Part shown: one piece after another, positions 11,002-24,788 of the stretch
Layout: the number at the start of each line of letters is the position of its first letter
Numbering within the stretch: the stretch's first letter is position 1
DNA from: Rhabditoides inermis
Lineage: Eukaryota; Nematoda; Chromadorea; Rhabditida; Rhabditidae
DNA: 64,000 nt
Direction: 5' to 3'
Assembly (NCBI GenBank): GCA_963966185.1
Contig: CAWZYM010000141.1
Span: 326,001-390,000, forward strand
Notes under the pieces: model-generated
Databases searched by the model: none
The model's input: only the letters and a program-made list of their open reading frames with translations
What the model was told of the DNA's origin: nothing
Translations under genes and position numbers: made by a program

Positions 11002-14000
11002 CTACTTGCGTTGATTCCGCTTCTTGTGAGGTCCGTGCTTCTTGTTCGGTCGTCTCTCATGGGGAATCTCCTCCTCGAACGATGCATCCAGATTCGCATC
11101 TGCTGGGCAGGGTGGAGGTGGTTTGTGTCCCGGCACATCCACTTGCACCGCTCCCGCTGCGTCCAGTGCCCGTCTCTCAACGTCCGGCATCTTCTTCGAA
11201 GTGCCCGCTGGACCTGAAATGATATTACATTTCTTTACCTGATCCATGTGTACTTGTAGTGGCTCCGCTGTCGGTGTAGACTCACTGCGAATGATGAGGT
11301 GAGGACGCTGCACTCGCATCACCCTATACTGTCCTAGCCACGGCAGATGAAGCTTCTTGGACTCATGCAAGTGAATGCCTGAATCCTTCAGCAGCACTCT
11401 GTCGCCGACAGTTACCTCCAACGGCTTCTTTGACGATCTGATCTTGAACTGCATTCGCGCCTTCTCATTCGATGCTCTCGCAACTTCCCAGGCTGCCAGA
11501 AGAGACTCGACGATCAGCTTCTTGTCCTCGTCTCTGCTATTGTCGTCTGGATTGACCAACTCCGTCTCGCCAATCAGCGTGTCAATGTTGTAGAGCGGCT
11601 CCCTTCCGTACATCATGAAGAACGGCGATTCTCCCGTGCTGCCGTGGATCGAAGTGTTGTAGCTGAACGTCACTGCCTGCAAGTAGACGTCCCACTCCTT
11701 CGTGCTCGTGTCCACGTAGCATCGTAGTGCCTGCTCCAGTGAGAGAAACACTCTCTCCACGACGCCTGCTGACTGGTGGTGATTGGGGGTCGAGAAGTGT
11801 TGCTCGATCTGCAGTAGCTCGAGCACCTGCTTCATCAGGTTGCTCCTGAGATACTGTGCATTATCCATATGTAGTTCTACGACTGCCCCGAACTTAAGAA
11901 TACACTCATTGAGAAGCGCCTTAGCTACCGTCCTAGCCTTACAGTCCGGTGCCGCTACAGTAATCGCCCACTTGGTAAAGTGATCGATCATACATACAAT
12001 GAACCTGTTACCTGTCGTAGACTTGTTGAAAGGTCCACACAGATCCAGATACATCTTCTGGAAGGGCGAGTGTGCGACGATCGGGACGATCTTCTCCCGA
12101 TTCGGCTGGTTTGTCCGCTTGCGCTGACATGTCTCGCATCCCGCGGCGTAAGCGATGGCCTCTTCTTGCATTCCTAGCCACGCGTACCGCCTTCGAAGCT
12201 TCGCGAGTGTGCGGCTACCGTTCTGATGTCCGCCGCCGCTACGAGCCTCGTGGTACTCCTTTACCAGCTCCGCTCGACTTGATTCGGGAATCACGATCCG
12301 TTCCCTCTCCCGCGCCTTGCCTTCCGAGATGTTCCGCTTGTCATTCGGATCGACGCTCCTGAAAACAAGACTACCGTTCTTGCCAACAGAACAACTTAAT
12401 GCAAACTCCATAAACTTCCTGTACTGCTGGATGGTCTCGCCTTCCTCCCTATCCACCGTCTCCTGTCTTAGCGCCACATGAATCCTCTGGCAGAACTTGT
12501 CATCCATCTGTCTCTGCAATAAAGACTGGTTGTCCTCCATAGCTCTCACCTTCGGGTTCGTGCGATGTGGCCTGTTCATGTTGACCATGATCGGTAGACA
12601 CACCGGGAACTCGATGATGTCCTCCACTTCCGGTGTACCATCCTTGAACCTGTCGACCGGGTTGCACCTGGACAGATAGTCCGCCATCACGTTTGCTCTT
12701 CCCTTGATGTAGTGGAAGGAGACGTCTCTTGCTTGCAGCTCGACCACCCACTTGACCAAACGGTCGTGAGTGTCTCCGCCCTTCAGCAGAGTAGTCAACG
12801 GCTTGTGGTCTGTAAAGATCTTGGTATGGTTACCGTAGATGATAGGGCGAAAGTGCCGCGTCGCGGCGACGATAGCGAAAAGCTCCGCATCTGTCGCGCT
12901 GTACAGTCTTCTTTGCACTTCTGACAGTGCCTTGCTGAAGTATCCAATCGGTGCCAGCTTCTTGGATCCCGGCTCGACTGCCTGCATGAGAACTGCTCCG
13001 ACGGCGTCCTTTGAAGCGTCTGTGTGCATCACGAACTCGTCGTTTCTTGGGTGGTGCAGACATGGCTCATTGACGATCGCCGTCTTGATATCCTCGAAAG
13101 ACTTGTCCTCAACAGCTGTCCACTGGAAAGGTGCCTTAGCCTTCGTCAAGTCGCGCAGCGGCTTGGCTAAGCCCGCCAGGTTGTGGATGAATGCTGCAAG
13201 AAAGTTGGCAAAACCCAAAAAAGATTGTACCTGCTTGACAGTCTTTGGTGCCTTGAAGTTCTTCGCCACTAAGATGTGTCGCCGGCTCGGCCTGTACACA
13301 TCTCCGTCGATCTCGAATCCTAGGAACGTGATTGTTCCTAGCCCAATCTCCGTCTTCTTGGCAGACGCCTTGAGGTTGAACTGCCGCAGCCTGTCCAGCA
13401 CTCTCCTCAGCGACTCCAAGTGGTTCTCGAAGGTGTCGTTGTAGATGATGATGTCATCCATGTAGGCGCTCACATTGCTGTGAAGTCCTGCCAAGACCCT
13501 TCCCATAGCGTTATTGAACGCTGCCGGTCCATTCGTTATGCCAAACGGCATGAACCTGAAAAGAAAGTTACCTTGCGGTGTTGTTATGCCGCACTTCCTC
13601 TTCGCCTTGTCGCTCAGTTTCAGCTGCATGAAACCTGAAGCGAGATCGATGCTGGAATAGTACCTGTGTCCAGCCATCTTCCGAAGAACATCGTCCATGA
13701 GTGGCAACTCATGGTGCTGCTTCAACGTGACTGCGTTGAGCTTCCGGAAGTCCGTGCACAGCCGAATACTTCCGTCCTTCTTACCTACCGGGACTGCGTT
13801 ATGCATCCATTCCCGCTGCGTGGTCGGCTCGATCCGCCCCGCTGCCAGCCAGGCTGCCACTTGGTCGGCCAGTTCCTGCTGATACTTGTTCGGGTACCGT
13901 ATCCTCCTCGGGTAGTACGTACACCGCTCCGTGAATGTCTCGATCTCCACGAGATCGGCCTCGTATGCGCCCAAGTCATACGACGACGACGACATCACGT

Positions 14001-14118
14001 CCTTAAACTCGCAAAATAAATTACGAATCACCTGCTTTTGCTCCTCCGTAAGGATGCTTCCAGACAGGTCTGGGATATAGAAGTCCCTCGCTGGTTCAGG
14101 CAGCGTAAGCGGCTTCTC
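11002..14118 (-). CDS. pol: Gypsy-1 pol: RT, RNase H, integrase
   Basis: An open frame on the minus strand from just after a TGA (14119-14121) to the stop at 11002. I give the whole frame because no convincing ATG starts it; a GTG lies at 14031, and 29 upstream codons read like a normal RT lead-in. Counting from that GTG: RT motif A S-S-I-D-L with Asp129 and Y-M-D-D at 190-193; RNase H with Asp338 (H-T-D-A-S), Glu383 and Asp451; integrase zinc finger His594, His602, Cys632, Cys635; catalytic triad Asp663, Asp723 and Glu759. After the core, an L-P-W-L-G-Q-Y segment resembles the GPY/F module. No chromodomain is seen. All key residues are present, so RT and integrase may be active. Protease is absent from this frame. 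Pol is in the -1 frame relative to the gag-like ORF. It makes and integrates element cDNA. Confidence 0.93.
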   Translation of the reverse strand, partial: EKPLTLPEPARDFYIPDLSGSILTEEQKQVIRNLFCEFKDVMSSSSYDLGAYEADLVEIETFTERCTYYPRRIRYPNKYQQELADQVAAWLAAGRIEPTTQREWMHNAVPVGKKDGSIRLCTDFRKLNAVTLKQHHELPLMDDVLRKMAGHRYYSSIDLASGFMQLKLSDKAKRKCGITTPQGNFLFRFMPFGITNGPAAFNNAMGRVLAGLHSNVSAYMDDIIIYNDTFENHLESLRRVLDRLRQFNLKASAKKTEIGLGTITFLGFEIDGDVYRPSRRHILVAKNFKAPKTVKQVQSFLGFANFLAAFIHNLAGLAKPLRDLTKAKAPFQWTAVEDKSFEDIKTAIVNEPCLHHPRNDEFVMHTDASKDAVGAVLMQAVEPGSKKLAPIGYFSKALSEVQRRLYSATDAELFAIVAATRHFRPIIYGNHTKIFTDHKPLTTLLKGGDTHDRLVKWVVELQARDVSFHYIKGRANVMADYLSRCNPVDRFKDGTPEVEDIIEFPVCLPIMVNMNRPHRTNPKVRAMEDNQSLLQRQMDDKFCQRIHVALRQETVDREEGETIQQYRKFMEFALSCSVGKNGSLVFRSVDPNDKRNISEGKARERERIVIPESSRAELVKEYHEARSGGGHQNGSRTLAKLRRRYAWLGMQEEAIAYAAGCETCQRKRTNQPNREKIVPIVAHSPFQKMYLDLCGPFNKSTTGNRFIVCMIDHFTKWAITVAAPDCKARTVAKALLNECILKFGAVVELHMDNAQYLRSNLMKQVLELLQIEQHFSTPNHHQSAGVVERVFLSLEQALRCYVDTSTKEWDVYLQAVTFSYNTSIHGSTGESPFFMMYGREPLYNIDTLIGETELVNPDDNSRDEDKKLIVESLLAAWEVARASNEKARMQFKIRSSKKPLEVTVGDRVLLKDSGIHLHESKKLHLPWLGQYRVMRVQRPHLIIRSESTPTAEPLQVHMDQVKKCNIISGPAGTSKKMPDVERRALDAAGAVQVDVPGHKPPPPCPADANLDASFEEEIPHERRPNKKHGPHKKRNQRK

Positions 14119-17750: not shown

Positions 17751-17956
17751 GTGAACGTTGGCGCTGGTTAGCGTGCGTTACCGGACCCATGTCTACTGTA
17801 CCCCAGTAATGACAATAAGACAGTGGCTCCGAAGAGAGAGATTTATATAAGTAAGAGCATGATAAACAACCGATGAGCATGTGGAATGATACATAGAGTA
17901 TGCAGTAATGAGCGATACCAGTGAACTACGACACACTTGTAGTTAACAACACATAC
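17751..17956 (-). repeat. Gypsy-1 5' LTR, piece next to the leader
   Basis: 206 bp identical by eye to 9731-9936. It ends in ATAC at the PLE junction. Confidence 0.94.
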
Positions 17957-19421
17957 TTTTGAAGTTTTTTCATCACGAGTAAAGATGCACCTAAGCAAAC
18001 GCTACAATGAAGAATATGATAAATTTGATTTTCAGTACATTAACTATTCTAAAGAAACTTTATCTCAACTACAAAAACACTTTGTCATAACACCAATAGA
18101 TAAGGCAGAAGGAAACTTTGCGCTGACATGTAACAAACTTTACATTCAAATCATGAATAAAGAACTAGGCTACGATGCCATAAACAACGTGGTGAACAGT
18201 AGTAATGAAACATATGCTTTGTATGAAAAAGAGTCCATCGACAACATTGTGCTTAGGCATATTTCTGAAACAAAATCTTTTAATACAATTGAGGCTGATA
18301 ATAAAACATTACCTAGAATTTATGCGATCCCAAAAATGCATAAAAGCCCAATAAAATTTCGATTTATAACTGGAGCTTTTAATAGTAGTCTCAAACCAAT
18401 TTCATTAGAATTGCAGTTGATACTATCCCATCTCAAATCACATTTTGCTAATTATTGCAAATTGATCAGACAGCGTAACAATACCGAAATATACTGGTCA
18501 ATCAAAAACAGCCAAGAAGCAATCAATTCCATCAACAATATCACAAATAAACAGCATAAAGACCTCTATTGTGCTGATTTTGCTAGTTTGTTCACAAATC
18601 TTCCCCATGGAGTTGTCATGCAGAATATGTTCAAACTTGTAGACCTATGTTTTAACAATAGCGGGAAAAAGTACATTATTTCCGGTTATAAAAAGGCATA
18701 TTATTCTAACGATGAGAATAATGCAAATAGAAACAAATATACACCAGTAGATGTGAAATTCATGATTCAATATATTCTTCACAACAGTTTTGCAATTTAT
18801 GGAGATAAACTTTTCAAGCAAACATCCGGTATCCCTCAGGGAAACAATGCCTCTCCATCGTTGGCAGACCTAACACTTTCTTTCATGGAATTCGAATACG
18901 TTAAAGCAAATGAAAATGTTTTCAAGTCTGGTTTCAAGGCATATAGGTATATGGATGATCTCTTGATTGTCCATAATCCTACAAATGATGCTCTGCAGAG
19001 AACAGTTGACAGTGTATACCATAGTTCCCTCACACTAGAACAAACGAACGTCGGACCAAACAATGCAATCTTCTTGGATTTGAATATTTCAAAGGCACAT
19101 AACCAGTTCTCAGTGGAATTATATAACAAAACAGATGATTACAATTTTGAAGTAGTCAGATATCCGAACTACAATTCTAATATAAAGATGTCTGTGGGTT
19201 GGAACACAATGAACGGTGAACTCACACGCATTTTCAGAACATGCACAGAGACAGCTTCCTTTAAGGTTAGATGCAAACAGTTAGTGTGCAACTTTCTCAA
19301 AAATGAGTATCCGCGGAGAAAAGTAGAATTAGAATTCTGTAAATTAGTTATGCGGAATAAATCAATGATGGTAAAGCATAACATTCGTGGTGTGTCTGAT
19401 GTTCTATCACTAATCAAGTAA
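17957..19421 (+). pseudogene. PLE ORF, 5'-truncated copy (RT only)
   Basis: The open frame from 17985 to the TAA at 19419-19421 covers the RT part of the full protein from about residue 516 onward. It lacks the nuclease and the C-x-C domain. It keeps motif A (D-F-A-S-L-F) and Y-M-D-D. In the G-x-P-Q-G motif it has Ile (ATC, 18831-18833) where the full copy has Thr (ACC, 23127-23129). The truncation is at 22253 of the full copy. No promoter or start of its own is evident; it serves as the upstream terminal repeat. Confidence 0.9.
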
Positions 19422-19728
19422 ATCTAATAATTATGGCGCGCCAAACTAGAACTGTCTGCTACTGTGCCTCTCTCTTGTCTCTCACCCACTGACCCACAGT
19501 CGCCGCCTCTCTCGCCTCTCTCTTACCCGCTGACCCACAGTCGCGCATTGTCTGCGCCCCCTATTATTTTCGCACTGATTGCCGCTGCCACATCTACTCT
19601 TCCCCCGCATATTCTCCTCGCAACGGCTCTTCCATATGAGTTATCTGTTATTTCGATCATTATTTTATAATATTTACTAACTAGTATATGTTTGTTGTTG
19701 TCCTTGTCTTATATGTTTGTGTTAACCT
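19422..19728 (+). other. PLE 3' UTR, first part (copy 1)
   Basis: A non-coding tail after the stop with a pyrimidine-rich block in which CTGACCCACAGTCGC occurs twice (near 19488 and 19530), then an AT-rich stretch. The same sequence follows copy 2 at 23718-24024. Confidence 0.7.
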
Positions 19729-19820
19729 CTCATGCGTGGTCATCTCTGATGAGTGCTCCGCCTCGCATGAGACTGTCCGAACAATCCAGTCAGGTGAAAG
19801 GAGCCGAAACTGGATTGTTC
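19729..19820 (+). ncRNA. Rearranged hammerhead-ribozyme-like motif (copy 1)
   Basis: Two perfect hairpin stems are visible. Stem A is CTCATGCG (19729-19736) with CGCATGAG (19764-19771); its loop holds TCATCT (19740-19745), CTGATGA (19746-19752) and GTGCTCC (19753-19759). Stem B is GAACAATCCAGT (19779-19790) with ACTGGATTGTTC (19809-19820); its loop holds C (19791), AGGTGA (19792-19797), AA, GGAGCC (19800-19805) and GAA. The pieces match a hammerhead. Stem B is helix III with A15.1-U16.1 in place and GTC as the cleavage triplet. TCATCT pairs with AGGTGA as helix I (one G-U). GTGCTCC pairs with GGAGCC as helix II (one bulged T). CTGATGA and GAAA are the core. The strand order (helix I/core/II, then III/cleavage/I, then II/GAAA/III) is not a circular permutation of types I-III. 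Activity is inference. Confidence 0.6.
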
Positions 19821-19856
19821 TTCATGTATTTCTTATCACAACTCCCCCTTTTTCTA

Positions 19857-20765
19857 ATTTTGATTGTCGGGAGCTGTGGGTGAGGTGAGGTGAGATACCC
19901 ACTCCCCATGGCGCCCCGTCTCTCCCCTCTTCATATTGATTTGATCCATATTCCCGCCAATTTGGCTCACTCTCATAGTCCACGTCTCCCTCTCCGCATG
20001 TTTTATGGTTTTGACCTGACAACATGAACGCAGCAATTCGGCTATATTGTTAGCCACCCGCCTTTCGGCAATAGTGTCTCTATTTGAGGCACGACCCTTG
20101 TAGTATCCATATTTTGGATACGAACTTTTGGCCCAATTTGGGCCACACAATATGATATTAGCTTCACACTCTCCCACTTACAATCGACAATGCGGCTACT
20201 ACTGGCCACACTGCCGTCTGGCACTAGTGTCTCTATTTGAGGCACGACCACCCTAGTATCCATATTTTGGATACGCAACATTAGCCCTATTTTGGGCTAA
20301 CCCCTTGATCCTTCGGGATCTTATCTGCATTTACATTTACTTTATTCAGACTATATCTAATCAATCCTTGTAAATAACATACAATCCTTTTCAAATTCGT
20401 GTTTTCCACTACCGGCTGAAATGCCACGAGCCGTTCCAACTAAGTTTGGTTTTCTGTCTCTCTTTATCATTCCCTCAATACCACCTTTCAATCCAACCAT
20501 TCTCACCAAACCTCTACTGCATTCGAAAAGAATGCAATCTATGTTTCCCTTGGAATAGATGCTTAGTGTCTCGAATGATTCACATGAAAAGTAGCATCAC
20601 TGATCATTCCATCAAGGAGGAAGGACACCTCGGGGATCTCGTTATCCCGCTTAAACCGGCTTCATGATGTGATGAGGTTATAGTAGCACAGGGGTTCTCT
20701 CGGGCTTGCCTGGGAGGGCTCGGCTTAGTTGCCACCCGGTGACACGGGCCCTGTCGCCAACCTGC
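19857..20765 (+). promoter_or_regulatory. PLE 5' leader with hairpin series
   Basis: About 0.9 kb of non-coding leader, found only in the full copy. A ~75 bp block occurs twice, about 152 bp apart (20068-20145 and 20221-20300), sharing TAGTGTCTCTATTTGAGGC and the hairpin GTATCC-ATATTTT-GGATAC (20103-20121, 20256-20274). Further short stems follow: GGCCC/GGGCC, TTAGCCC/GGGCTAA, and GATCC-TTCG-GGATC (20307-20320), a UUCG-tetraloop hairpin. GGTGACACGGG (20738-20748) pairs with CCCGTGTCACC (20829-20839) across the start codon. It could be a promoter, translation or packaging structure. Confidence 0.55.
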
Positions 20766-23717
20766 ATGAAGTGTCGAGTCGGGGCGCTCCCTTTGATATT
20801 CTATCCGCACATTCTTTCCATTCGCCTCCCCGTGTCACCCGTACGGAGGACGTGCCTCCACAAAACCCCGGCCGTGGTGGGCCATTATAAATCACCAGCG
20901 AACCAACAGAAAACCCCATATTATACTCAAACTAGTTTTGAGAGCAGAAAAATAGGTGGAAGACATGTTATTCAAGTACCATATAACAATGACCATATAG
21001 GTGAATCTTGTGGAAAGTCGAGATGTGTTATTTGTCCGAAAATTAGTTTCACTGATCATGTTATTAGTAATGCTACAGGACGTACCATTTCTACTAACAA
21101 ACACGCGACTACTTGTTGTTCTACCAAAAACTTAATATATATGATTACTTGTAATCGGTGCAGGCTACAATATGTAGGTGAAACCACCACAACCGTGAAA
21201 CAACGAATGTCAGCTCACCGCCACAGTTTCAAAAATGGTATTCTGAATACATATTTGAGTAAGCACTTCAAACTTTCGGATCATGATCATGAAGATTTCT
21301 CAATAGACATTCTCGACAGTGCGGAAGAAAATCGTGACAAAACTATCCTTCATGAAAAAGAACAGTTTTGGATTCGAATGATGGTTACTGCCTATCCCTT
21401 TGGACTCAATGATCAAATAAAAGGATTCGGTAATATCTCTGATTTAAGTATTCAAAATTGTAAAATTAAGTCGCACCCCTACTTCTCTATGCAAATCAAA
21501 AATGTCAGTAAGAAATGTCGTGGTAAAAAGAGAAGAAGTCGGCCAGCAAATTATAATTTAATGTCGATATCAGATATTGTTTCGGAAGTTGAAAAGAACA
21601 AAGGCTTTTCATTGCACAAGTTTTTTAAAACTATTTCACGAAATAATACGGATAAGTTGATTGATTTTATGATAAATAATTCTGATTTTAATAATTTGAA
21701 TAAACTCACTCAACTTAAGATTTTTGCGGGAACGTGTAAATCACTTATGAAACTAAACAATGCACAACAAACAGTTACACGTTTTCACAATTTGAAAATT
21801 AATTATGATGGAAAATTCTTGGAAAGTGTGAACATTGCGAAAATAATCAACCGTAGCTTCCGTAATATAATTACACGAGAACAAATTTATAACGATAAAA
21901 ATGTGTTGAATACTAGAATACTTTACCAATACGATCTTCCAATTTCCTCTGTAATTTGTAACTATAACCGCTTCCTTAAAACACTAACCACAGAACGTAT
22001 ACGGGAAATTTTACTAGGCGATTGCATGTGTGATTCAAAGTATTCCCAATATAAAGATTCTCACCATGAACATGTGGTCACTGGTAATTTGAATATTATT
22101 GAGGACATCAATTTGAGAACAATAATGCTGAAAGGTACGAAGTTCAGAACACCAAAACTAGTTAACAAAATAGAAAGTCTTGAAACTATTCTAGAACATG
22201 TAACCACTCACTTGGATAAACTTCAGAAGAGTTATAACATTCCACTAAATACTTTTGAAGTTTTTTCATCACGAGTAAAGATGCACCTAAGCAAACGCTA
22301 CAATGAAGAATATGATAAATTTGATTTTCAGTACATTAACTATTCTAAAGAAACTTTATCTCAACTACAAAAACACTTTGTCATAACACCAATAGATAAG
22401 GCAGAAGGAAACTTTGCGCTGACATGTAACAAACTTTACATTCAAATCATGAATAAAGAACTAGGCTACGATGCCATAAACAACGTGGTGAACAGTAGTA
22501 ATGAAACATATGCTTTGTATGAAAAAGAGTCCATCGACAACATTGTGCTTAGGCATATTTCTGAAACAAAATCTTTTAATACAATTGAGGCTGATAATAA
22601 AACATTACCTAGAATTTATGCGATCCCAAAAATGCATAAAAGCCCAATAAAATTTCGATTTATAACTGGAGCTTTTAATAGTAGTCTCAAACCAATTTCA
22701 TTAGAATTGCAGTTGATACTATCCCATCTCAAATCACATTTTGCTAATTATTGCAAATTGATCAGACAGCGTAACAATACCGAAATATACTGGTCAATCA
22801 AAAACAGCCAAGAAGCAATCAATTCCATCAACAATATCACAAATAAACAGCATAAAGACCTCTATTGTGCTGATTTTGCTAGTTTGTTCACAAATCTTCC
22901 CCATGGAGTTGTCATGCAGAATATGTTCAAACTTGTAGACCTATGTTTTAACAATAGCGGGAAAAAGTACATTATTTCCGGTTATAAAAAGGCATATTAT
23001 TCTAACGATGAGAATAATGCAAATAGAAACAAATATACACCAGTAGATGTGAAATTCATGATTCAATATATTCTTCACAACAGTTTTGCAATTTATGGAG
23101 ATAAACTTTTCAAGCAAACATCCGGTACCCCTCAGGGAAACAATGCCTCTCCATCGTTGGCAGACCTAACACTTTCTTTCATGGAATTCGAATACGTTAA
23201 AGCAAATGAAAATGTTTTCAAGTCTGGTTTCAAGGCATATAGGTATATGGATGATCTCTTGATTGTCCATAATCCTACAAATGATGCTCTGCAGAGAACA
23301 GTTGACAGTGTATACCATAGTTCCCTCACACTAGAACAAACGAACGTCGGACCAAACAATGCAATCTTCTTGGATTTGAATATTTCAAAGGCACATAACC
23401 AGTTCTCAGTGGAATTATATAACAAAACAGATGATTACAATTTTGAAGTAGTCAGATATCCGAACTACAATTCTAATATAAAGATGTCTGTGGGTTGGAA
23501 CACAATGAACGGTGAACTCACACGCATTTTCAGAACATGCACAGAGACAGCTTCCTTTAAGGTTAGATGCAAACAGTTAGTGTGCAACTTTCTCAAAAAT
23601 GAGTATCCGCGGAGAAAAGTAGAATTAGAATTCTGTAAATTAGTTATGCGGAATAAATCAATGATGGTAAAGCATAACATTCGTGGTGTGTCTGATGTTC
23701 TATCACTAATCAAGTAA
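20766..23717 (+). CDS. Penelope-like GIY-YIG nuclease / reverse transcriptase (Naiad type)
   Basis: 983 residues from the first ATG at 20766. The frame is open further up to a TTG at 20706, and the residue numbers here count from that TTG (ATG = 21). N-terminal GIY-YIG nuclease: I-Y-M at 144-146, Cys149 and Cys152, Y-V-G at 156-158, Arg167, His171, and probable catalytic Glu219 in H-E-K-E-Q-F-W. The Cys pair plus downstream His residues fit the CCHH zinc motif of PLE nucleases. A linker has C-M-C at 440-442 followed by H-H-E-H-V-V-T-G-N-L, the C-x-C domain of N-terminal-nuclease PLEs. RT: motif A D-F-A-S-L-F with Asp723, G-T-P-Q-G around 807-811, Y-M-D-D at 847-850. It nicks the target and reverse-transcribes its RNA there. 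No in-frame TGA, so no selenocysteine version. All catalytic residues are present; it may be active. Confidence 0.92.
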   Translation: MKCRVGALPLIFYPHILSIRLPVSPVRRTCLHKTPAVVGHYKSPANQQKTPYYTQTSFESRKIGGRHVIQVPYNNDHIGESCGKSRCVICPKISFTDHVISNATGRTISTNKHATTCCSTKNLIYMITCNRCRLQYVGETTTTVKQRMSAHRHSFKNGILNTYLSKHFKLSDHDHEDFSIDILDSAEENRDKTILHEKEQFWIRMMVTAYPFGLNDQIKGFGNISDLSIQNCKIKSHPYFSMQIKNVSKKCRGKKRRSRPANYNLMSISDIVSEVEKNKGFSLHKFFKTISRNNTDKLIDFMINNSDFNNLNKLTQLKIFAGTCKSLMKLNNAQQTVTRFHNLKINYDGKFLESVNIAKIINRSFRNIITREQIYNDKNVLNTRILYQYDLPISSVICNYNRFLKTLTTERIREILLGDCMCDSKYSQYKDSHHEHVVTGNLNIIEDINLRTIMLKGTKFRTPKLVNKIESLETILEHVTTHLDKLQKSYNIPLNTFEVFSSRVKMHLSKRYNEEYDKFDFQYINYSKETLSQLQKHFVITPIDKAEGNFALTCNKLYIQIMNKELGYDAINNVVNSSNETYALYEKESIDNIVLRHISETKSFNTIEADNKTLPRIYAIPKMHKSPIKFRFITGAFNSSLKPISLELQLILSHLKSHFANYCKLIRQRNNTEIYWSIKNSQEAINSINNITNKQHKDLYCADFASLFTNLPHGVVMQNMFKLVDLCFNNSGKKYIISGYKKAYYSNDENNANRNKYTPVDVKFMIQYILHNSFAIYGDKLFKQTSGTPQGNNASPSLADLTLSFMEFEYVKANENVFKSGFKAYRYMDDLLIVHNPTNDALQRTVDSVYHSSLTLEQTNVGPNNAIFLDLNISKAHNQFSVELYNKTDDYNFEVVRYPNYNSNIKMSVGWNTMNGELTRIFRTCTETASFKVRCKQLVCNFLKNEYPRRKVELEFCKLVMRNKSMMVKHNIRGVSDVLSLIK

Positions 23718-24152
23718 ATCTAATAATTATGGCGCGCCAAACTAGAACTGTCTGCTACTGTGCCTCTCTCTTGTCTCTCACCCACTGACCCACAGTCGCC
23801 GCCTCTCTCGCCTCTCTCTTACCCGCTGACCCACAGTCGCGCATTGTCTGCGCCCCCTATTATTTTCGCACTGATTGCCGCTGCCACATCTACTCTTCCC
23901 CCGCATATTCTCCTCGCAACGGCTCTTCCATATGAGTTATCTGTTATTTCGATCATTATTTTATAATATTTACTAACTAGTATATGTTTGTTGTTGTCCT
24001 TGTCTTATATGTTTGTGTTAACCTCTCATGCGTGGTCATCTCTGATGAGTGCTCCGCCTCGCATGAGACTGTCCGAACAATCCAGTCAGGTGAAAGGAGC
24101 CGAAACTGGATTGTTCTTCATGTATTTCTTATCACAACTCCCCCTTTTTCTA
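23718..24152 (+). other. PLE 3' UTR (copy 2)
   Basis: The same 435 bp tail as 19422-19856, ending CCCCCTTTTTCTA at the junction with Gypsy-1 LTR. It contains the second hammerhead-like motif. Confidence 0.85.
24025..24116 (+). ncRNA. Rearranged hammerhead-ribozyme-like motif (copy 2)
   Basis: An identical copy of 19729-19820, offset by exactly 4,296 bp: CTGATGA at 24042-24048, the GTC triplet ending at 24087, GAAA at 24102-24105. Predicted cleavage after 19791 and 24087 would release one 4,296 nt unit containing the whole ORF. Activity is untested. Confidence 0.6.
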
Positions 24153-24788
24153 ATACAATAGTAAAGGACACTGAGTAGAAGACTGCTACTCGAAAGCGTG
24201 TGCCTGAACTAGGTGACTAAAGAAGTGAAGTGGGTGTCTGGGTCATGGTTTATATAGTGGCATACTGGCGGGAGAATACTGATAGACTCTGATCTATGGG
24301 CGGGAATACACTGATCTACGAGTGAGTGAATAGTCTGGGCGGGAATAGGAGGAGTGAGGGGAGCTAAGGGGCGCGGCTGGCATGCCGGCGTAGAATGTGG
24401 GTCACGGGAAGTGAGCGGGCCTATAGAAGGGGCCGCGAACGTCGCTCATCCTTCCTCGTAGTTGCTCTTCCTCTCCTCGTCCCTGCTCGTGCCATCGCCA
24501 TCGGGTGCGCGTGTGGAATGTGCGCCCGATGAGTAAGTGCTCGGTCTGCTCGCACGTGGTGTAGCTCCCACCTGGAGTGGACTCTACTTGGTCCCTTTCA
24601 CTCACCGGCACTACGTACGTAGAGCTGTTACTCGCGGCACTCTCAGTACTCGCGATACTCTCGGCACTCGCGGTACTCTCGGTACTGTAAGTACCGCGCC
24701 TCTGTAAGTTAAGAGACCCGACTGTCCCAGCCTACACTAGAGTATACTAAGACGAGTGCACACATAGTGAACCTCACACTATGTGACA
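24153..24788 (-). repeat. Gypsy-1 5' LTR, outer piece
   Basis: 636 bp identical by eye to 9933-10568. It ends TGTGACA (24788) against the satellite, with flank CTATG. Confidence 0.94.

Follow-up and report, generated by a model that had tools for sequence, protein, structure and literature searches.

The 64,000-nucleotide stretch of the Rhabditoides inermis genome analysed here (the window) very probably encodes an active type-CSG hammerhead ribozyme near the 3' terminus of a Penelope-like element (PLE) retrotransposon family. Insertions that start exactly at the predicted cut suggest that the RNA cuts in living cells. The preliminary description of this DNA had proposed a hammerhead in a non-canonical strand order, which the anatomy of the site supports, and had taken that order to be unknown; the latter view is outdated, as Eckert et al. 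2023 (NAR, PMC10085705) named it type-CSG from two sequences that cleave in vitro. The strand order is thus known already and, as far as our searches show, what is new is a natural host, abundance, covariation and a genomic footprint.

Architecture of the ribozyme

A sequence check and a descriptor scan found all of the hammerhead parts where the preliminary description had placed them, within 19729-19820 of the forward strand (Table 1). All 12 pairs of helix III and all 6 of helix I (one of them G-U) are present, as are the 6 pairs of helix II with their bulged T; stem A has the 8 perfect pairs described and, beyond a T-T mismatch, 2 further G-C pairs. When window positions 19729-19820 are numbered as ribozyme columns 1-92, stem A pairs columns 1-8 with 36-43 and 10-11 with 33-34, helix I pairs 12-17 with 64-69, helix II pairs 25 with 77 and 27-31 with 72-76 (T26 bulged) and helix III pairs 51-62 with 81-92; the core occupies columns 18-24, and cleavage is predicted at the bond C63/A64.

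The blocks follow one another in the type-CSG order, CUGAnGA, cleavage site, GAAA, both in the window and in 11 of 11 representatives of the families described below, and the conserved core nucleotides of this type (CUGAnGA, GAAA, A15.1-U16.1 and H17) are in place. H17 is A in locus L154, and single copies with altered cores exist (e.g. L061). The helix that joins stems I and II in type-CSG hammerheads is present in the form of stem A. PLE type I hammerheads have the order core-GAAA-site, which differs from that of the window ribozyme.

Table 1 Features of the ribozyme and its host element in the window.
Feature	Position	Strand	Remarks
5'-truncated upstream PLE copy (C-terminal part of RT ORF and 3' UTR)	17953..19858	+	head-to-tail with the full copy
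Stem A, 5' strand	19729..19739	+	8 pairs, T-T mismatch, 2 pairs; links distal ends of helices I and II
Helix I, 5' strand, TCATCT	19740..19745	+	
Catalytic core CTGATGA (block C)	19746..19752	+	present in 11/11 representatives
Helix II, 5' strand, GTGCTCC	19753..19759	+	T19754 bulged
Stem A, 3' strand	19761..19771	+	
Helix III, 5' strand	19779..19790	+	last base is the T of position 16.1
Cleavage-site GTC	19789..19791	+	
Predicted scissile bond C19791/A19792 (block S)	19791..19792	+	5' end of cleavage-start insertions
Helix I, 3' strand, AGGTGA	19792..19797	+	
Linker between helices I and II, 2 nt	19798..19799	+	AA in window; TA, AA or A in relatives
Helix II, 3' strand, GGAGCC	19800..19805	+	
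GAAA (block G)	19806..19809	+	final A is A15.1
Helix III, 3' strand	19809..19820	+	
Tail to the element's 3' terminus	19821..19858	+	common 3' ends; presumed start of reverse transcription at tail end
Complete PLE unit (5' UTR, ORF, 3' UTR ending TCTAAT)	19859..24154	+	
ORF, 1013 aa stop to stop	20676..23717	+	GIY-YIG at aa 152-200, then RVT_1 at aa 718-879
Second ribozyme, 3' UTR of full copy	24025..24116	+	identical to 19729-19820

These pairings suggest how the RNA would fold. Hairpin A, with the core in its loop, and hairpin B, with the cleavage site and GAA in its loop, would kiss via helices I and II and so rebuild a standard hammerhead core, probably in cis. Stem A would adjoin helix I and lie one nucleotide from helix II, with the 2-nt linker on the other side, and stem and linker together would replace the loop I-loop II contact of ordinary hammerheads. 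The cut, presumably made by the RNA itself, would fall between C19791 and A19792 and would leave a 3' piece of 67 nt (19792-19858) carrying the end where reverse transcription is expected to start.

The pairing does call for helices I and II to form a kissing pseudoknot between hairpins A and B. The preliminary description had offered such a kissing-loop or, failing that, assembly in trans; the kissing part holds, and trans assembly is not required, since each of the published type-CSG RNAs cleaves in vitro as one molecule. Cleavage in trans, between two RNA molecules or two tandem units, we consider improbable: the pseudoknot is made by two separately folding hairpins, so exchange between copies would be possible, and genomic junctions cannot separate cis from trans, but the two hairpins lie 0-7 nt apart (7, 6 or 0 nt) in 11 of 11 representatives, and the published RNAs cleave co-transcriptionally as single short molecules (PMC10085705).

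Those two RNAs, CSG-1 and CSG-2, resemble the window ribozyme in the block order core-site-GAAA, in the crossing helices, in the helix uniting stems I and II and in the kept core (PMC10085705). Their 3' product is published as 29 nt, a figure which may include flanking letters, and window 19792-19820 is also 29 nt. Type-SGC and type-GCS hammerheads are likewise non-circular permutations with two pseudoknots, but have other block orders (PMC10085705).

Searches of random sequence, folding and Rfam models

A type-CSG descriptor demanding at least 5 pairs in helix III, 4 in helix I and 4 in helix II matched the two strands of the window only at 19746 and 24042. On 2.66e9 bases of order-1 Markov random sequence it returned 6 loose matches, far weaker than those of the window, and none of these reaches 8/5/5 pairs in helices III/I/II. 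Folded without pseudoknots, 19700-19850 forms both hairpins, with z = -3.83 against shuffles. Loop-loop duplex energies are -7.6 to -10.6 kcal/mol and come entirely from helix II; helix I alone gives -4.4 kcal/mol, and the helix I of family 3 (see below) gives -0.3.

An Rfam scan of the window returned no match at the gathering score, and the best hammerhead in a permissive scan was type III, which covers hairpin B alone and scores 16.7 bits where the cut-off is 48.5. That the Rfam models do not report the ribozyme, and that the case for catalysis comes from sequence, would suit a structured 3' UTR that resembles a hammerhead by chance and has no catalytic activity. Such a coincidence is nevertheless extremely unlikely, given a random expectation far below one, the covariation in the helices and the clustering of insertion 5' ends on the predicted bond.

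The host element and its genomic copies

The ribozyme lies downstream of the ORF, its end 38 nt short of the element's 3' end. It had been placed in the tail of a PLE with an N-terminal GIY-YIG, and the Pfam domains of the ORF agree: GIY-YIG and RVT_1 are both above cut-off. With GIY-YIG upstream of RT in one ORF, we take this to be a Naiad-type Penelope-like element. According to the preliminary description, PLEs with an N-terminal nuclease are reported to lack canonical hammerheads. The region shared by the truncated copy and the full copy (17953-19858 and 22249-24154) is 99.95% identical. The 5' UTR contains a direct repeat of about 110 bp at 80% identity (20034-20143 and 20188-20297). Two other features of the window are a tandem array of about 317 copies with a period of about 121 bp (24788-63499), starting about 630 bp past the 3' end of the PLE, and a 1038-aa ORF on the opposite strand (11002-14118) that by eye resembles an LTR retrotransposon polyprotein (RT, RNase H, integrase).

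The genome searched was the window's own (172.6 Mb, 599 contigs). A nucleotide search gave 40 scored copies at 98-100% identity (the best 40 of 170 candidates), including 14 ribozyme pairs. A protein search, in which 45 of 654 candidates were scored (48 rows), gave at least 16 stop-free full-length ORFs at 99-100% identity, with further groups among the scored candidates at about 92%, 57-59% and 48-49%. Fourteen of the 16 stop-free copies are flanked by ribozymes on both sides, with spacings of about 4.15-5.6 kb in 13 pairs and 11.2 kb in the pair on C89; the copies on C10 and C318 have the downstream ribozyme only. These 14 ribozyme pairs around stop-free ORFs form a partial-tandem arrangement with repeated terminal regions, as known for PLEs with minimal type I hammerheads (PMC6155905). 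According to the same review, all PLE sequences then available carry hammerheads, usually minimal and without helix III or a tertiary contact, whereas the window ribozyme has a 12-pair helix III and a stem that replaces the contact.

The idea that the ribozyme is more conserved than its flanks is true only in part. In locus L025 the ribozyme is 96% identical, the distal 3' UTR 72% and the 5' UTR 77%, but the 78 nt directly upstream of the ribozyme match it at 94%, and locus L022, a mosaic, has an upstream identity of 99-100%. These 78 nt (window 19651-19728), conserved like the ribozyme at 94-100% in three subfamily copies, are possibly a further RNA element.

Related families

A 3' half-motif of the ribozyme has 275 matches in the genome, of which 107, all exact, belong to the window family (family 1), 122 to families 2 and 4 and 46 to family 3. 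The matches sit in 3' UTRs of Penelope-like elements from five groups, with RT identity going down to 48%. The family 2 ribozyme, a diverged one, was found in L048 with an Infernal model of the window family, and 40 of its copies were scored (the best 40 of 271 candidates). One copy, L090, lies downstream of a broken PLE RT frame, the pieces of which are 50-71% identical to family 4 and, where matched, 40-56% identical to the window protein. In G000:C229:445486-469180, seven family 3 half-motifs follow one another at an exact spacing of 3945 bp, apparently as a head-to-tail PLE array. A family-1/2 pattern had no match in IMG/VR viral contigs or prokaryote genome contigs, which are unlikely homes for such a retroelement.

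3' UTRs were fetched from 11 distant elements: six of family 3 (the 57-59% group), four of family 4 and one of family 5 (the 48-49% group). In 11 of 11, at 48-59% RT identity, CTGATGA is followed by the site and then by GAAA. A strict descriptor (helix III at least 5, I at least 4, II at least 3 pairs) accepts four of them, all from family 4 (L138-L141), and the other seven, six from family 3 and one from family 5, fail through mismatches. Families 2 and 4 have full helices except for one helix I mismatch in the F2b representative (L089); family 3 has a perfect 6-pair helix II, 4 of 6 pairs in helix I and 1-2 mismatches in helix III; and the one copy seen of family 5 carries A-A where helix II would have its first pair. 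One copy each of families 3 and 4 has an N-terminal GIY-YIG above the Pfam cut-off, with no RVT_1 match reported for these two copies, which are nevertheless 48-58% identical to the window protein over 920-944 aa.

Covariation of the helices

When the families were aligned with MAFFT, families 3 and 5 were misplaced, as was the helix III strand of families 2 and 4. We therefore segmented 11 representatives by hand, checking each row against its locus, and counted pairs that occur as at least two standard types differing on both sides. Such two-sided changes with pairing kept were found at 3 of 6 pairs in helix I, 3 of 6 in helix II, 8 of 12 in helix III and 9 of 11 in stem A; the representatives are related and were chosen and aligned by us, and the figures are counts rather than independent events. 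The preliminary description had held that the match would be coincidental if cleavage and compensatory changes in helices I and II were both lacking; both helices have compensatory changes. Stems I, II and III all covary, with mismatches in family 3 (I and III), in family 5 (II) and in F2b (one in I).

Stem A has 10-11 of its 11 pairs in 9 of 11 representatives, and 6 of 11 in the two of family 3. As segmented here, it adjoins helix I with no gap in each of the 11, and a single G separates it from helix II. The linker joining the two 3' strands measures 2 nt, or 1 nt in family 3.

Exchanging strands between families loses pairs, clearly so in helix III and stem A: a helix III from families 1 and 2 keeps 7 of 12 pairs (12 of 12 unswapped), and a stem A from families 1 and 5 keeps 4 of 11 (10 of 11 unswapped). 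Between families 1 and 2, helices I and II lose little, 5 of 6 versus 6 of 6; some other combinations lose more. A swap between families 1 and 3 leaves 1 of 6 pairs in helix I and all 6 in helix II, and the helix I 5' strand of family 3 forms 4 or 5 of 6 pairs with 3' strands of other families, compared with 4 of 6 with its own.

Insertions starting at the predicted cut

Cleavage at C63/A64, followed by copying of the 3' piece all the way to its 5' end, should leave some insertions with A64 as their first base. A pattern beginning at A64 has 107 matches, 100 of them listed, and the same pattern with TCCAGTC upstream has 95, all listed; the 7 unlisted matches of the first equal in number the 7 later-contig places in the second listing. 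Of 20 listed places without TCCAGTC, 12 have a changed but ribozyme-like upstream sequence and 8 have unrelated sequence up to A64; two of the 8 have common flanks, leaving 7 independent loci. A pattern without the A at column 64 found 9 further places, all of which were fetched: L147 starts at A64 and has an internal 2-nt insertion, L142 and L145 start at column 65, L143 and L144 start at about column 73, and L146, L148, L149 and L150 carry point changes or deletions.

Within columns 58-73, the range set by the search patterns used, the 5' junctions of the window family fall at A64 in 9 loci (8 independent), at column 65 in two and at about column 73 in two, and these patterns found none at the remaining positions. 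The chance of 8 of 12 independent junctions falling at one pre-named position among 16 is about 1e-7 by a hand binomial, with detection unequal across positions because the second pattern loses about a quarter. Scattered junctions also occur outside this range: the nearest upstream is L028, at about column 57, with L024 and L026 farther up, and L105, L114 and L116 each have a junction at a place of their own.

The 75 nt upstream of the 8 independent A64 sites bear no more likeness to the ribozyme region than shuffles do, with 130-298 of 300 shuffles matching it at least as well, versus 0 of 300 at two control loci with ribozyme remnants. The flank of L121 looked faintly ribozyme-like by eye, a candidate that we rejected, as 253 of 300 shuffles were at least as good (extended locus L129); flanks of L104-L122 were read via extended loci L123-L130. 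At the junction, flank and ribozyme agree over 2 bases in L104, 1 base in L117, L120 and L122 and none in L107, L118, L121 and L147. In the first four of these loci, such chance agreement makes the exact end uncertain by 1-2 bases.

The A64 inserts reach the element's 3' end after 65-67 nt in L104, L107, L117, L118 (and its twin L119), L120 and L147; the insert in L121 is 56 nt long through an internal deletion, and that in L122 runs into a CT repeat without a clear end. No clear target-site duplication was seen at nine cleavage-start loci, where the longest string common to both flanks is 4-8 nt. We also looked for copies that stop where the 5' product would end, with a pattern expected to overlook roughly a quarter; none were found, the two matches (L063, L148) being A64G point mutants.

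In families 2 and 4, 6 of the 100 listed matches (of 122) lack GGTC; two of these (L151, L152) start at T64 and the other four are point mutants. Upstream of the two starts, the adjoining 75 nt are no more ribozyme-like than shuffles. A further families 2/4 pattern, searched over the whole genome, found L151, L152 and L157, the last of which was rejected as a cleavage start, having the motif upstream and an internal 7-nt duplication. In a set of scored family 2 copies, 8 junctions lie at 8 different places, and none of the 46 family 3 copies is a cleavage start.

Two kinds of unusual junction were seen along the way. L106 and L157 have 7-nt duplications directly at the cleavage site, which may be template jumps from a cleaved 5' end, or slippage. 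In L145 (G000:C276:241870-242090) the tail beginning at column 65 is fused to a segment resembling, by eye, the RT coding region of the PLE itself, which would fit a jump of reverse transcription between element RNAs.

We read the A64-start inserts as 3' cleavage products that were reverse-transcribed. A roadblock to reverse transcriptase would explain their ends less well, since a stable helix would be expected to stop the enzyme at column 92 or 77 rather than at 64. In R2 and related elements, HDV-like ribozymes lie at the element's 5' end, and their cleavage sets the 5' ends of insertions. The window ribozyme is similar in that its cut would fix an insertion 5' end, but its fold is unrelated and its cut, near the element's 3' end, would give short tail inserts.

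Possible roles of cleavage

What the ribozyme does for its element is less certain than its identity, because 14 of 16 copies are uncut upstream, family 3 has 0 of 46 cleavage starts and the strict descriptor rejects 7 of 11 distant relatives. The arrangement fits best with a role in resolving head-to-tail transcripts made from partly tandem copies, in which cleavage would also separate the tail from the RNA body. The cut in the downstream copy would part tail from body in this way, which makes a brake or a protein-regulated step a serious rival. Since 14 of the 16 intact ORF copies carry both an upstream and a downstream ribozyme, their template RNAs must have been uncut at the upstream one; at the slow rates published for the two type-CSG RNAs in vitro (0.004 and 0.026 per min, PMC10085705), many transcripts would escape, and intact tandem pairs need such escape.

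The ribozyme could also be real and cutting, with the cutting a side activity or brake and the fold mainly an RT binding site, so that uncut RNA is productive and cut RNA leads to short dead-end inserts. We regard this as possible, though on the doubtful side. The stop-free ORF copies behind an uncut upstream ribozyme (14 of 16) would fit it, as would the 78 nt directly upstream that are conserved like the ribozyme in three subfamily copies; in another PLE, moreover, the hammerhead needed protein in order to cut, and insertion in vitro did not depend on cleavage (PMC11167929). On the other hand, the core, the site and both pseudoknot helices are kept across groups at 48-59% RT identity, which is more than a mere binding hairpin would require.

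For the wider group, we think it somewhat probable that type-CSG is the standard 3'-terminal ribozyme of a whole PLE clade, an old, vertically kept rearrangement that shapes retrotransposition and whose cleavage in vivo is recorded as insertions starting at the scissile bond.

CSG-1 and CSG-2 are two similar sequences, the covariation of which their authors call modest, and for which no host or element is known to us from the main text (PMC10085705). By comparison, the type found in the window has 275 half-motif matches in one genome, spread over five diverged groups in a retrotransposon host, with junctions at the cut site. No paper on type-CSG hammerheads in PLEs was found by title or abstract in the open-licence PMC literature. 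Type-CSG hammerheads would gain from these findings a natural host, hundreds of copies, five diverged covarying groups and a genomic record of cleavage at the predicted bond, and the ribozymes of PLEs would no longer be minimal type I motifs only. The old question of what use a ribozyme is to PLEs becomes testable, in a family with many near-identical stop-free copies.
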